A stretch of 64,000 nucleotides of DNA, from contig NZ_JACZFR010000053.1 of NCBI RefSeq assembly GCF_014904815.1, positions 1 to 64,000 on the forward strand, in the 5' to 3' direction. Made by a program: the position numbers and the translations under genes. Source of the stretch: Microbulbifer taiwanensis. GTDB lineage: Bacteria; Pseudomonadota; Gammaproteobacteria; Pseudomonadales; Cellvibrionaceae. This document shows positions 39,187-62,859 of this stretch, in pieces. How positions within the stretch are numbered: the stretch's first letter is position 1; each line of letters opens with the position of its first letter. Under the pieces are notes generated by a model. The model was not told where the DNA came from, searched no databases, and saw only the letters and a program-made list of their open reading frames with translations.

Positions 39187-39215
39187 CGCAGGCCCGCCCG
39201 GTATTTTTTGAAACT

Positions 39216-39250
39216 CGTCATTCCGGCGCAGGCTCTGCGCCGGAATGACG
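39216..39250. repeat. Short palindromic repeat, family R1 (collapsed copy)
   Basis: CGTCATTCCGGCGCA and TGCGCCGGAATGACG are perfect 15-bp inverted arms around GGCTC. This is the shortest form of the R1 family, whose longer copies (about 72-91 bp) have the same outer ends. Confidence 0.85.
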
Positions 39251-39265
39251 ATGGCAAGGAAACAT

Positions 39266-40912: not shown

Positions 40913-40937
40913 TTTTCCTATCAAACGTCTATTTGTT

Positions 40938-41028
40938 CGTCATGCCGGCGCAGAGCCTGTGCCGGACTCGATCCGATACCGGTATCCAGTTTGGTGGCAC
41001 CTGGATTCCGGCCGTCGCCGGAATGACG
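40938..41028. repeat. Short palindromic repeat, family R1 (91-bp full copy)
   Basis: Outer ends CGTCATGCCGGCG and CGCCGGAATGACG are inverted; an inner pair, TATCCAG and CTGGAT, is also inverted. It lies between the convergent mutT and yacG genes. It shares ends and inner motifs with the copies flanking the GIY-YIG gene near 61.6-62.1 kb. Confidence 0.85.
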
Positions 41029-41037
41029 AGGGCGAGC

Positions 41038-42180: not shown

Positions 42181-42332
42181 AATCCCGACTGACCCCCCCA
42201 TGCTTGCAGCTTGTGATTCACTTTAACTGTAGGAATACATGGAGCAGCCTGAGCGAACCCTGTGTTCGCCCTAATCGGGGCGAGCCAGAAACGAAAAGGG
42301 CGGAACCAAGGTCCGCCCTCCAATATATCTTT

Positions 42333-42386
42333 CGTCATTCCGGCGCAGAGCCCGTGCCGGACTCGATCCGCTACCGGAATCCGGTC
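42333..42386. repeat. Family R1 repeat (partial)
   Basis: CGTCATTCCGGCGCAGAG...GGACTCGATCCGCTACCGGAATCCGG: the left half of the 91-bp R1 form at 40938, including its distinctive GCCGGACTCGATCCG inner part, but without the right end. Confidence 0.75.
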
Positions 42387-44570: not shown

Positions 44571-44630
44571 GTCATTCCAGCTCGGGCCGGAATCCAGTAA
44601 TCCGTCATTCCGGCGCAGGCCGGAATCCAG
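44571..44630. repeat. Two short R1 repeats between pilC and pilB
   Basis: GTCATTCCAGCTCGGGCCGGAATCCAG (44571-44597) and GTCATTCCGGCGCAGGCCGGAATCCAG (44604-44630) in direct orientation, 6 bp apart. They are short left-end forms of R1 lodged inside the pilBCD operon. Confidence 0.85.
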
Positions 44631-58300: not shown

Positions 58301-61300
58301 TCAGTGAAAGCTTCTGACGCTCTGGATTTCCGCCCACTCTAAACAGAGAACTTTTTGTCCGACCAAATGGACTACGGGATGACTCGATTCCTCTGGAGTG
58401 GCATTAATCTGGATTCGTCCACTGATTTGCAGGATATTGCCCCGTTTGATCTCCATTCTATAGCGCTGTTGAGTCTTTTCCCACAGCACTACATTGATCA
58501 CTCCAGTCTCGTCCTCCAGAGTCAGAAACATCACTCCGGCAGCGCTGCCAGGCCTCTGCCGGCAGGTGACCAGGCCGATAATGGTCGCCTGCTGGCCGTT
58601 TGGGTATTGGGCCAGTTCCCATGCTGTGTTGTGCTTGCGGAATCGGTCCCGGCGGCGCAGCAGGGCGATTGGGTGTTCGCGCAGGGTCAGGCCTGTGCTG
58701 CTGTAGTCGCTGTAGGTGTTGTCCTCTGTGGAGTTGCCGGGGCTGTGTTGAGTGGTGATAGTGCTTTCTATCTCTCCGTTCAATGACAGCCAGGTATCCA
58801 GGTAGCGGTTTTCGGTCAGGCTGTTGAAGGCGTTGGCACTGGCCAGGGCGGTGGTCTGTTCCCTGGGGAGTTGGGTTAGCTGGCGGAACTGGGGTAGGGA
58901 GGTGAAGGTTTGTTTTTCTCTCTGGGTGGTGATGGTGGTTGCGGTTTGTTCGTCGAGACCTTTGATCAGGCGTAGGCCGAGGCGGAGCACTGGGGTGGTG
59001 GGTTGCGGTTTGTGCCGGGATGACGGCGGAGTGGTGGGCGTGAGAGGGAGGCTTTCTGCTTTCTGGGTGTTCGATAAGGTTTGGGGGCGTTCTTGTACTC
59101 TTGTGAAGTTGGCATGCATCGATCGCGGCCATGGGCCGCTCCTACGGGAGAGTGTGTTCTCGTCTGTGTGTTGGGGCGCGGCTGGTTTTCCCTCTCCCCC
59201 GCCCCCTCTTCCGCAAGCGGGAGAGGGGGGCTGGAGTTCCAGGCTGTGGTGCCAATGGCTGTAAAGAACATCTATGGGTAACACCTTTACGTTGTGACGC
59301 TGGGCGTCGTAGACCAGTTGTGCCGGGGCGTAGAAGCCCATGGGCTGGCTGTTGAGCAGGCCGCAGTAAAAAGCCGCCGGGTGGTGGTGTTTTACCCAGG
59401 CGGAGAAGTAGGCCAGCAGGGCGAAGCTGGCGGAGTGGGATTCGGGGAAGCCGTAGGAGCCGAAACCTTTCATCTGGTTGAACAGTTGTTCGGCGAACTC
59501 GGCTCTATAGCCGTTGGCCTGCATGCCCTGGATCAGTTTGTCCCTGAATTTGTACAGGTCGCCGTTCTTGCCCCAGCTGGCCATGGCGCGGCGCAGTTCG
59601 TCGGCCTCGCCGCCGCTGAAGCCGGCGGCGACCATGGAGAGCTGGATGACCTGCTCCTGGAATATGGGTACGCCCAATGTGCGCTCCAGTACCGGGCGCA
59701 GGTTTTCGTGGGGGTAGGTCACCGGTTCCAGACCCTGCTTGCGGCGCAGGTAGGGGTGTACCATGCCACCCTCGATGGGGCCGGGGCGGACTATGGCGAT
59801 TTCTATGGTGAGCTCGTAGAAGCGGCGTGGCTGCAGCCTCGGCAGCATGCTCATCTGCGCGCGGGACTCTATCTGGAAGACACCAACGGTGTCGGCGCGA
59901 CACATCATCCCGTAGACGGCTTCGTCGTCGGGGGGGATGTCCTGCAACCTGAGCTTTGGGCCGTAGAGGGCGATATAGCTCAGGGATTTGCGCAGGGCGG
60001 TGAGCATGCCCAGGGCGAGAATGTCCACCTTCATCAGTTTCAGGTCTTCGATATCCTCCTTGTCCCACTGCACTATGGTGCGGTCCTCCATGGCGGCGTT
60101 TTCGATCGGCACCAGTGTGTGCAGCGGCTGTTCGGTGATCACGAAGCCGCCCACATGCTGGGACAGGTGGCGGGGGAAACCGTGGATCTGTGCCAGTAGC
60201 TGCGGCAGGGCCTTGCCGGTGATGCTCTCCGGATCCAGGCCGACTTTCTGCATCTGCCGGGGGAAGTCTTCCATTTTGTCCCACCAGGCGCGCTCCGCCA
60301 GCAGCTGCTCGATGGTGGCGGCGCTGATACCCAGGGCCTTGCCGATATCGCGCAGGGCGCTCTTGAAGCGGTAGGTTATTTTGGTCGCGGCGAGGCCGGC
60401 GCGGTGGCGACCGTATTTGCCGTAGATGTACTGGATGATCTCCTCGCGCCTTTCGTGCTCGAAATCCACATCGATATCCGGCGGTTCGTTGCGCTCGCGG
60501 GAGATAAAACGCTCGAACAGCAGGCCTATCTTGTGCGGGTCTATCTCGGTGATAAACAGGCAGTAGCAGACCACCGAGTTGGCGGCGGAGCCGCGGCCCT
60601 GGTAGAGGATATGCTGGTTGCGGGCGTGCTGGACTATGTCGTAAATGGTGAGGAAGTAATGCTCGTATTCCAGCTCGCCGATTAGTGCGAGTTCTGTTTC
60701 GATCTGCTCGGCAATTTTCTGGGAGGGGCCTTCCGGCCAGCGTTCCTTTTTGCCAGTCTCCACCAGTTCGCGCAGGTAGTTGCTGGACTTTTTACCGGCT
60801 GGCAGGACTTCCGAAGGGTACTGGTAGCGCAATTCACTGAGGCTGAAATGGCAGCGCTCGGCAATAGCCGTAGTATTTTCTATGGCATGTCCGGGATACA
60901 GGGCCTGGATATCCTCGAGACTGCGCATATAGCGCTCGGCGTTCTGTTCAATACGATAACCCAGTTGCTCCAGGGTGCAGTTGTGGTAGTTGGCGTTGAG
61001 CACGTCCTGCAGGGGTTTGCGGCTGCGGCAGTGCATCAGTACGGCGCTGGTGGCCACCATGGGCAGTCTTTCTCGCTCGGCGAATTGAATCAATTCGGTG
61101 TTGCGGGAGTTTTGTTGTGGCAGCAGGTGATTGCTGAAGGCGATATACAGGCGGCCGCGGAAGTGCTGTTTCAGTTCCTCGGGAATACTCAGCGGAGACT
61201 CGTGCGGGAGCCAGATGGCGATGGTCTGCCGGCAGATTTGTAGCAGGTCTTTGAAATATGTCTGGTATTGGCCCTTTTCCGCGCGCAGGCGTGAAGTGGA

Positions 61301-61591: not shown

Positions 61592-61615
61592 TGTGTTTAC
61601 CTTTCGTCATACCGG

Positions 61616-61687
61616 CGCAGGCCGGTATCCAGACTCTAGCTCCGTAGTTTCTGGATCCCGGTATTGGGTCAAGTCCGGGATGATGAG
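61616..61687. repeat. R1 repeat, left flank of GIY-YIG gene
   Basis: CGTCATACCGGCGCAGGCCGGTATCCAG, then ACTCTAGCTCCGTAGTTTCTGGAT and an inverted right end degraded to GTCCGGGATGATGAG. It lies 24 bp after the dnaE2 start and 8 bp before the GIY-YIG stop, and is the direct partner of the copy at 62003-62076. Confidence 0.88.
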
Positions 61688-61694
61688 ATGGGTA

Positions 61695-61985
61695 TTAGAG
61701 GATTTCCGGATATAGGTCTCGCCAGTGACGATTGGACTTTTCGATCAGATTTAGTTTCCAGGCGCGTTGCCAGTTCTTGATTGTCTTCTCTCGGTTGATT
61801 GCGTTTTCCATGGTGCCATGGAGTTCGAACCAGACGAGGGTTTTTACTCCGTACTTTGTAGTGAAGCCTTTGATGAAGTCATTTTTGTGTTGCCAGATTC
61901 TCTGTATGAGGTTTGAGGTGACACCTGTGTAGAGTGTACCGTTGCGTTTGCTGGCGAGAATATAGACGCATGGTTGTCTGTTCAT
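61695..61985 (-). CDS. Single-domain GIY-YIG nuclease
   Basis: A 96-residue protein made only of a GIY-YIG domain: CVYILASKRNGTLYTGVTSNLIQRIWQHKND at the N-terminus (VYI/YTG pair plus the catalytic Arg), LVWFELHGTMENAINREKTIKNW (metal-binding Glu in the INREKTIK helix) and KSNRHWRDLYPEIL at the end. It belongs to the YhbQ/UPF0213-like group. The gene is bracketed by two direct R1 repeats 8 and 17 bp away and sits inside the imuB-dnaE2 cassette, which suggests it moved in together with the repeats. Target and function are unknown. Confidence 0.9.
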   Translation of the reverse strand: MNRQPCVYILASKRNGTLYTGVTSNLIQRIWQHKNDFIKGFTTKYGVKTLVWFELHGTMENAINREKTIKNWQRAWKLNLIEKSNRHWRDLYPEIL

Positions 61986-62002
61986 GGTTAATACCCATGT
62001 CT

Positions 62003-62076
62003 CGTCATACCGGCGCAGGCCGGTATCTAGGCTCTGGCTCCGTGGTTTCTGGATTCCGGCCTACGCCGGAATGACG
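62003..62076. repeat. R1 repeat, right flank of GIY-YIG gene (full copy)
   Basis: A 74-bp imperfect palindrome: CGTCATACCGGCG at the left end, CGCCGGAATGACG at the right end, and inner CGGTATCTAG and CTGGATTCCGG. Most of the inner sequence (CTCTGGCTCCGTGGTTTCTGGAT) matches the copy at 61616 with few changes. It is 17 bp upstream of the GIY-YIG start codon. Confidence 0.9.
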
Positions 62077-62261: not shown

Positions 62262-62540
62262 TTATGCCGCGTGAAACTCTACACTGATCTCAAAGCCGCA
62301 TGCGTGTGCATATTTTTTTAAGACTTTCCAGCTGGGGTTTGTATTGCCTTTCTCCAGGCGGCAGATGTTGCTCTTCTTGGTGCCCATGCGGTGTGCGAGT
62401 TCTTCCTGGGTTAAGCCCGCAGCTGTTCTCATCTTCAGGAGTTTGTCGATTAGCTCGAACTCTTCTTCAAGGGCGTCGTACTCGCGCTGTACTTCGGGAG
62501 CCTGAAGGGCACGGTCTTTCAGTTTCTGTAACTTACTCAT
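62262..62540 (-). CDS. XRE-family antitoxin (HigA-like)
   Basis: A 92-residue protein with an N-terminal helical segment and an XRE helix-turn-helix at about residues 36-88 (LLKMRTAAGLTQEELAHRMGTKKSNICRLEKGNTNPSWKVLKKYAHACG). It neutralises the toxin encoded just upstream and represses the pair. Its first codons overlap the toxin gene by 8 bp; toxin-first order is typical of HigBA. Confidence 0.9.
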   Translation of the reverse strand: MSKLQKLKDRALQAPEVQREYDALEEEFELIDKLLKMRTAAGLTQEELAHRMGTKKSNICRLEKGNTNPSWKVLKKYAHACGFEISVEFHAA

Positions 62541-62859
62541 CTTGGTTAATCTCTTTCATTCGGGCCTGTGCCAAACGAAACTCTTTCTTGGGGAGCTTCT
62601 GAGATTTCTTTACGAAGGCGTGCAAGATGTAAATATGATTACCTTGCATGTAACAGAATAGCGCTCTAGCTATGCCTTCGCTGGCCTTGGCTCTGATTTC
62701 AAATAGGCCGTCACCTAGCGGGGCTGTGTGTGGAGCTCCGAGGTTGGCTCCATAGGTTTCTGCCAGTTCAAGAAGCCTCAGCATGCGCGCCTGTATTTTC
62801 GGCGGCATTGCAAGAATGGCATTTTCGACGCCGTCGTAGAAATCAATTGTCCACGCCAC
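62533..62859 (-). CDS. RelE/HigB-superfamily toxin
   Basis: A 108-residue protein of the phage-derived Gp49-like/HigB family, probably a ribosome-dependent mRNA interferase: MARTIDFYD-like N-terminus (MAWTIDFYDGVENAILAMP), GDGLFEIRAKASEGIARALFCYMQGNHIYILHAFVKKSQKLPKKE. The basic FVKKSQKLPKKE strand is the usual catalytic end. It is the first gene of the pair, behind an operator palindrome at 62875-62896. Confidence 0.92.
   Translation of the reverse strand: MAWTIDFYDGVENAILAMPPKIQARMLRLLELAETYGANLGAPHTAPLGDGLFEIRAKASEGIARALFCYMQGNHIYILHAFVKKSQKLPKKEFRLAQARMKEINQDE

Follow-up and report, generated by a model that had tools for sequence, protein, structure and literature searches.

A small GIY-YIG nuclease gene may be the missing partner of CGTC-tagged hairpin repeats in Microbulbifer taiwanensis and other bacteria

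The GIY-YIG gene and its flanking repeats

The window, a stretch of 64,000 nucleotides of Microbulbifer taiwanensis DNA, contains a GIY-YIG gene that is single-copy in this genome and bracketed by two copies of a repeat, R1 (about 61604-61686 and 62002-62076; Table 1). The R1 copies are direct repeats sharing 91% identity over 58 nt (61604-61661 versus 62002-62059), and each consists of two hairpin arms in tail-in orientation (GTCAT-stem-ATCCA ... TGGAT-stem-ATGAC). An earlier note on this DNA had described a gene of 96 residues between two R1 copies and at least four further occurrences of R1 at 39-45 kb; the gene and its bracket were confirmed, and four places were matched in that interval. 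It had placed the start of the first R1 copy at 61616; this start lies at about 61604.

Table 1. The GIY-YIG gene and the CGTC-type REP arms of the window
Feature	Position	Strand	Basis
Single-domain GIY-YIG nuclease gene, 96 aa	61695..61985	-	ORF listing and Pfam PF01541
CGTC-REP arm, gene-distal, dimer 3' of gene	61605..61631	+	pattern match 61606-61631
Degenerate gene-proximal CGTC-REP arm, dimer 3' of gene	61652..61686	-	read from sequence
Gene-proximal CGTC-REP arm, dimer 5' of gene	62003..62029	+	repeat comparison
Gene-distal CGTC-REP arm, dimer 5' of gene	62050..62076	-	pattern match 62050-62075
Dispersed CGTC-REP arms, R1 family	44571..44630		window search and pattern
Dispersed CGTC-REP copy	40936..41029		window search and pattern
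Dispersed CGTC-REP copy, partly degenerate	42329..42382		window search
Dispersed CGTC-REP copy, partly degenerate	39215..39251		window search

The sole Pfam match of the 96-residue protein, PF01541 (GIY-YIG), spans residues 5-79 with an E-value of 1.6e-16; Pfam detected neither a further DNA-binding domain nor a reverse transcriptase nor a Y1_Tnp (HUH tyrosine transposase) domain in this single-domain protein, and an NCBIfam search gave no family at E<=0.001. Six residues are invariant across the homologue alignment (Y8, Y19, R29, H33, E66 and N85), the positions that are catalytic in GIY-YIG enzymes such as UvrC and I-TevI. The Pfam match, together with the conserved GIY/YIG tyrosines, Arg, Glu and Asn, places the protein in the GIY-YIG superfamily. 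The AlphaFold2 model has a pLDDT of 93.8 and, among solved folds, lies closest to UPF0213 (1zg2), Slx1 and the UvrC N-domain, with no match at E <= 0.001; by sequence profile, the nearest solved structures are again 1zg2 and also 1ywl. The protein is a probable DNA-cutting enzyme.

CGTC-tagged REPs are defined by a CGTC (or TGTC, CCTC) tag, a stem beginning with AT, a loop of 4-5 nt and a CCA tail. R1 has a CGTC tag, an 8-bp stem beginning with AT, a 4-nt loop, a CCA tail and a dimeric arrangement, as do the repeats described in the available text of PMC3733652, and by these features it is classified as a dimer of this known class. The pattern GTCATNCNNGN{5,9}CNNGNATCCA has 152 matches (77 + 75) in the M. 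taiwanensis genome and its reversed form has none, indicating that the REP family is not a product of chance. A direct DNA search of the genome with R1 matched only the two window copies; as it is too strict for 27-nt arms, the pattern search was used instead. Among 32 distinct 26-nt copies from this genome, 17 cells are altered on both sides of the stem, compared with 6.0 in shuffles (0/500), which marks the stem as maintained by compensatory change, although 15 of the 17 cells come from one base pair and several positions are fixed by the search pattern itself. Neighbouring inverted pairs within 100 nt are tail-in in 14 cases (spacer 12-19 nt) and tag-in in 2 among the 100 exact-pattern copies listed, a count that misses degenerate partners. 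In an Rfam search that covered matches up to E 1, none came near the gathering score.

Association of gene and repeats across genomes

A peptide-seeded scan yielded 52 loci, 50 of them testable and two dropped, and control ORFs were taken from the same DNA stretches. The strict CGTC-arm scanner found an inward-facing pair at <=300 nt at 27/50 loci versus 4/174 control ORFs. A repeat-blind test, in which the upstream flank was locally aligned with the reverse complement of the downstream flank, was positive (score >=30) at 36/50 loci, compared with 3/174 control ORFs and 1/72 of the ORFs <200 aa; at a score >=40, the counts were 26/50 and 0/174.

By profile, the gene is present in 111 of the 398 genomes of a phylum-wide sample. 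The 110 top-scoring matches analysed (30 initial loci and the next 80, with two contig-start matches passed over) included 108 usable loci, the window's own among them, and two with too-short flanks. An inverted repeat between upstream and downstream flanks (score >=30) is present at 84 of these 108 top-scoring loci, versus 10% of 2000 mismatched up/down pairs, and is missing at 24; the strict scanner detects both arms at 39/108. Most gene copies examined in the two collections are bracketed, contrary to an outcome that the earlier note had named as refuting it. In Microbulbifer, 6/11 gene copies have REPs on their 3' side only, and the gene starts a few nt past the upstream gene. Three plasmid loci (L219, L233 and L316) likewise have REPs only at their 3' side. 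From 33 plasmid-collection records, 15 match regions were taken, and 8 further regions were added, a non-random choice. The homologues of Azospirillum lipoferum and Novosphingobium aromaticivorans, two species named in the accessible part of PMC3733652, are bracketed by matching arms, and a gonococcal homologue (L310) lies inside a cluster of dRS3-like dimers. Five weak GIY-YIG hits fall outside the clade; the stretches examined contain no CGTC-REP for four of them and two for the fifth (L306). Overall, the putative partner gene appears flanked by its own repeats in the manner of REPIN/RAYT-like systems.

The gonococcal record is filed as a plasmid but is chromosome-sized (2.17 Mb), and its GIY-YIG homologue has no annotation in the gene table supplied with it. 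On a plasmid of Planktothrix agardhii (L313), a cyanobacterial GIY-YIG gene lies between an MmeI-type restriction gene and the DISARM gene drmA, with an inverted repeat that is weaker (score 36) and of different sequence.

Repeat number tracks the presence of the gene, if not absolutely. The 11 gene-positive genomes among 48 from Microbulbifer have a median of 106 REP matches (29-157) and the 37 gene-free ones a median of 1 (0-97; p 4e-7). Equal abundance of R1 in genomes that lack the gene, which the earlier note had named as an outcome that would refute it, is therefore not what is observed. On an ImuB tree of 43 genomes, parsimony gives about 10 changes in gene presence, and phylogenetic regression over these genomes, which leaves out the 5/48 without a matched ImuB end, attributes 0.9-1.1 log10 units of REPs to the gene (t 5.7-6.7, df 41). 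Several gene-free Microbulbifer genomes near gene-positive species are still REP-rich, among them G010 (97 matches), G024 (37) and G008 (33), which fits recent gene loss without proving it.

At the phylum level, at least 10 pattern matches are present in 47/111 gene-positive and 17/287 gene-free genomes (odds ratio 11.7), and the family-stratified odds ratio is 8.4 at >=5 matches (11 of 87 families). Fewer than three matches occur in 47/111 gene-positive genomes; the pattern captures some of the REP types, not all. A search for overlooked or diverged GIY-YIG genes in 22 REP-rich genomes scored gene-free came up mostly empty: at E<=0.01, 17 have no homologue and 5 have only weak GIY-YIG hits, a result that counts against a partnership. 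Five of the 17 are G084 (168 matches, 99% complete), G202 (122, 94%), G333 (55, 100%), G150 (36, 100%) and G384 (34, 100%). Such genomes imply that the gene is not needed for the persistence of the repeats, or that another mobiliser exists.

Stems vary strongly by lineage, while left and right arms agree within a locus. Over the 75 of 109 loci with strong enough arms, the window's own locus aside, protein similarity correlates with arm similarity (Spearman 0.26 across genomes and 0.24 across families; 0/500 permutations each). For within-genome paralogues, rho is 0.53 over 33 pairs, and arm similarity is below 0.3 in 22/33, by a measure that may exaggerate differences wherever an extended two-arm region is trimmed to 60 nt. 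One REP type, GTCATNCTGAACTTGTTTCAGNATCCA, was found in 8/398 phylum genomes, seven of which belong to one family and are all gene-positive; the eighth, which is incomplete, has one match. Four genomes have at least 7 copies of GTCATNCTGAACTTGTTTCAGNATCCA: the gene is bracketed by it in G347 and G442 and by a near variant in G395, while the one locus read in G329 carries another REP type.

Occupied sites, empty sites and movement

All 11 gene-positive Microbulbifer genomes have the gene between imuB and dnaE2, and its GIY-YIG distances follow those of ImuB (Mantel r 0.62, 1/2000), which indicates that the gene is inherited largely in place; the flanks in Microbulbifer harenosus (L004) are identical to those in G016. 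The junction was measurable at 10/11 gene-positive and 29/32 gene-free loci. Since 25 of the 29 gene-free junctions are 35-181 nt long, the cassette is normally near-contiguous, much as the earlier note had supposed. The scanner detects REPs at 10/10 gene-positive and 0/29 gene-free junctions.

Other sequences occur at this junction as well. In the window, imuB and the GIY-YIG gene are further separated by a toxin-antitoxin-like pair, a HigB-like Gp49 gene with an HTH gene (62262-62859, minus strand). G015 and G024 have this pair at imuB-dnaE2 too, and other inserts are found there in G008, G038 and G010. Because of the HigB/HTH pair and the other inserts in several genomes, imuB-dnaE2 looks like an insertion hotspot. 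In G036 (L056), a CGTC-REP arm lies inside the first part of dnaE2, and in G013 (L065) about 380 nt interrupt the dnaE2 match after residue 58, so that REPs or inserts appear to lie inside a coding gene. The dnaE2 ORF of the window contains a low-complexity in-frame stretch at about 58990-59270 (minus strand; PSPACGRGGGGEGKPAAP...), which may be another dispersed repeat that has inserted within the coding sequence.

A second site is the recN-ligA spacer of the genus of G246, putatively Bradyrhizobium by our assumption; at least 34 of 146 genomes carry the gene there. The gene-positive set comprises 30 loci, of which 29 were testable and one (L261) was left out as it has no intact profile match; an inverted repeat is present at 29/29 and a REP core on both sides at 27/29. 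The median dN/dS is 0.084 over 134 pairs (0.05<pS<0.65) drawn from the 23 full-length copies among the 30, which argues that the gene is kept by purifying selection at this site. Any CGTC-type signal was found at 1/40 fetched gene-free sites (L304), as a short fused CGTC...GACG palindrome, and 24 of these 40 sites are clean by reading (<=62 nt between aligned blocks). A different palindrome family (TGTCCCGGACGCGGTGCAGC...GCAGAGCCGGGACC) was read at 12/40 of them (L265-L304), and a similar palindrome flanks another GIY-YIG copy (L216).

At imuB-dnaE2 and recN-ligA, sites that lack the gene thus mostly lack REPs as well. No target-site duplication was evident by eye at the loci compared, between relatives too diverged for base-exact boundaries.

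Further sites are occupied in other genera. In Azospirillum lipoferum, the gene stands between sufB and sufC, flanked by one REP dimer at each end. On Sphingobium megaplasmids, it adjoins fnrL, at the fnrL-response regulator site; among gene-free relatives, two have a fused palindrome there (L227 and L228), one is clean and two have other short sequence. The fused palindrome has CGTC at both ends and is built from the outer halves of two arms, and it is read here as a probable deletion scar. Fused palindromes of this kind at gene-free sites (L227, L228 and L304) are possible excision scars.

A 562-nt unit, 98% identical, occurs at two loci of one Sapientia aquatica genome, which suggests that the gene recently moved together with its arms; such movement is seen in this one genome. 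Overall, the gene is mostly sedentary, in Microbulbifer and at recN-ligA, and the repeats are the dispersed part. The earlier suggestion of a mobile unit is therefore only partly right: it is the repeats that disperse, as they do in REPIN/RAYT systems, and the gene, apart from its movement in Sapientia, keeps one place in Microbulbifer. Conversely, a fixed location in all relatives, the outcome that would have spoken against it, is found within the genus but not across genera, as the recN-ligA, sufB-sufC, fnrL and Sapientia loci demonstrate.

Interpretation and comparison with known systems

The gene probably encodes a REP-partner nuclease with the R1 REP dimers of the CGTC class as its cognate substrates, and it could be the missing partner responsible for spreading or keeping these hairpin repeats. 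The observed REP-gene-REP arrangement is laid out like an autonomous element, and the ordinary tail-in REP dimer with its short spacer would resemble a non-autonomous derivative of it. The nuclease would most likely recognise a hairpin with a GTC tag and a CCA tail, in cruciform or in single-stranded replicating DNA, and would cut at the base of the hairpin or close to it; through host repair, REP dimers could then occasionally be excised or copied to other sites. With the gene mostly inherited in place, as observed in two genera, the enzyme would serve the dispersed repeats in trans, much as RAYT serves REPINs. GIY-YIG enzymes cleave DNA by hydrolysis and are not known to form a covalent strand-transfer intermediate. 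REP insertion would consequently need host factors, which counts against this explanation.

It is rather unlikely that the protein is instead a host or domesticated Slx1-like enzyme that clears or repairs cruciforms formed by REP dimers and moves none of them, with repeats building up only where the enzyme is present and decaying after its loss. Such a role is consistent with the nearest folds, which include the UvrC N-domain and Slx1, one Slx1 structure being a complex with 5'-flap DNA. It is also consistent with purifying selection, with the largely vertical inheritance beside imuB and with an SOS box at one small COG2827 gene in Caulobacter, mentioned in the available part of PMC1839093. 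However, tolerance of this kind leaves unexplained the bracketing by matching REP arms, the mostly unlike arms of paralogues and the duplicated unit of Sapientia.

A still smaller chance attaches to hitchhiking, in which small genes are trapped in intergenic REP arrays by repeat recombination and the REPs are mobilised by another enzyme, for example RAYT or a Y1 transposase. Most Microbulbifer genomes (41/48) have Y1_Tnp genes, and some REP-rich genomes have no GIY-YIG gene, but small control ORFs are rarely bracketed, and tyrosine transposases are not flanked by CGTC REPs according to the accessible text of PMC3733652. Within the genus, Y1_Tnp presence has no effect on REP number in the phylogenetic regression, and the REP-rich genomes G012, G013 and G022 have no Y1_Tnp match. 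RAYT was rejected as the mobiliser since Y1_Tnp presence does not predict REP number in the genus. Homing, in which the nuclease cuts existing REP dimers and homologous repair copies REP-gene-REP in, after the manner of a freestanding homing endonuclease, is highly improbable: GIY-YIG homing endonucleases exist and the gene sits where the REP-dimer spacer would be, but the intact target repeat expected at empty sites was mostly not found (none at the 29 Microbulbifer junctions and a short fused palindrome at one of the 40 recN-ligA sites), and the fused palindromes of Sphingobium plasmids, which could be pre-insertion sites, read as deletion scars.

Beyond the preferred reading of a REP-partner nuclease, we put forward only tentatively that a second REP enzyme of independent evolutionary origin, a minimal GIY-YIG nuclease of 96 aa that recognises a tagged hairpin, moves the CGTC REPs, dRS3 of Neisseria among them, as miniature transposons. 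If true, transposition would proceed by hydrolytic hairpin cutting and host repair, distinct from the routes of DDE, HUH, serine and tyrosine recombinases; REP/partner-enzyme systems would have arisen twice from unrelated nucleases; and a widespread gene annotated, if at all, as "GIY-YIG nuclease family protein" would gain a use. The available text of the 2013 study left the spread of CGTC-tagged REPs, including dRS3, open and found no transposase with them (PMC3733652); an assay of the candidate nuclease on a 27-nt hairpin could answer this question directly. A literature search, with preprints and most subscription papers outside its scope, found no report that pairs GIY-YIG proteins with REPs or dRS3, and novelty is unproven; one table in the available part of PMC9465073 has separate entries for a RayT gene and a GIY-YIG gene, with no link claimed there.

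The protein shares its fold and size with the small GIY-YIG proteins of the UPF0213 / YhbQ / COG2827 group, but is only distantly similar to them, with 28% identity to 1zg2. As in I-TevI, I-BmoI and the GIY-YIG proteins of Penelope-like retroelements, a GIY-YIG domain is tied to mobile DNA; unlike in these, the single domain stands alone.

The CGTC-tagged REP families include Neisseria dRS3 and Rickettsia RPE-4/6 (Di Nocera et al. 2013, PMC3733652). The accessible part of that paper reports no dedicated enzyme for them, whereas one is proposed here.

The closest parallel is provided by REPIN/RAYT systems (REPtrons; TnpA-REP). In both cases, as far as the available texts of PMC8049555, PMC3116915 and PMC8266576 describe them, the repeats are dispersed palindromic dimers and the partner gene lies beside its cognate repeats; the gene is single-copy or present in few copies and sedentary, repeats are commoner where it is present, and different paralogues go with different repeat flavours. 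RAYTs are likewise described as single-copy and vertically inherited enzymes with one repeat flavour each (PMC8049555, PMC3116915, in the parts available). The analogy with RAYT transposases drawn in the earlier note therefore withstands comparison in adjacent cognate repeats, dosage, unlike paralogue repeats and selection. The two systems differ in their enzymes, a GIY-YIG nuclease here and an HUH tyrosine enzyme there, and in their repeats, which carry a CGTC tag and a CCA tail here and GTAG there. The GIY-YIG/REP pairing thus appears to work like REPIN/RAYT, but falls outside that system, its enzyme not being an HUH protein.
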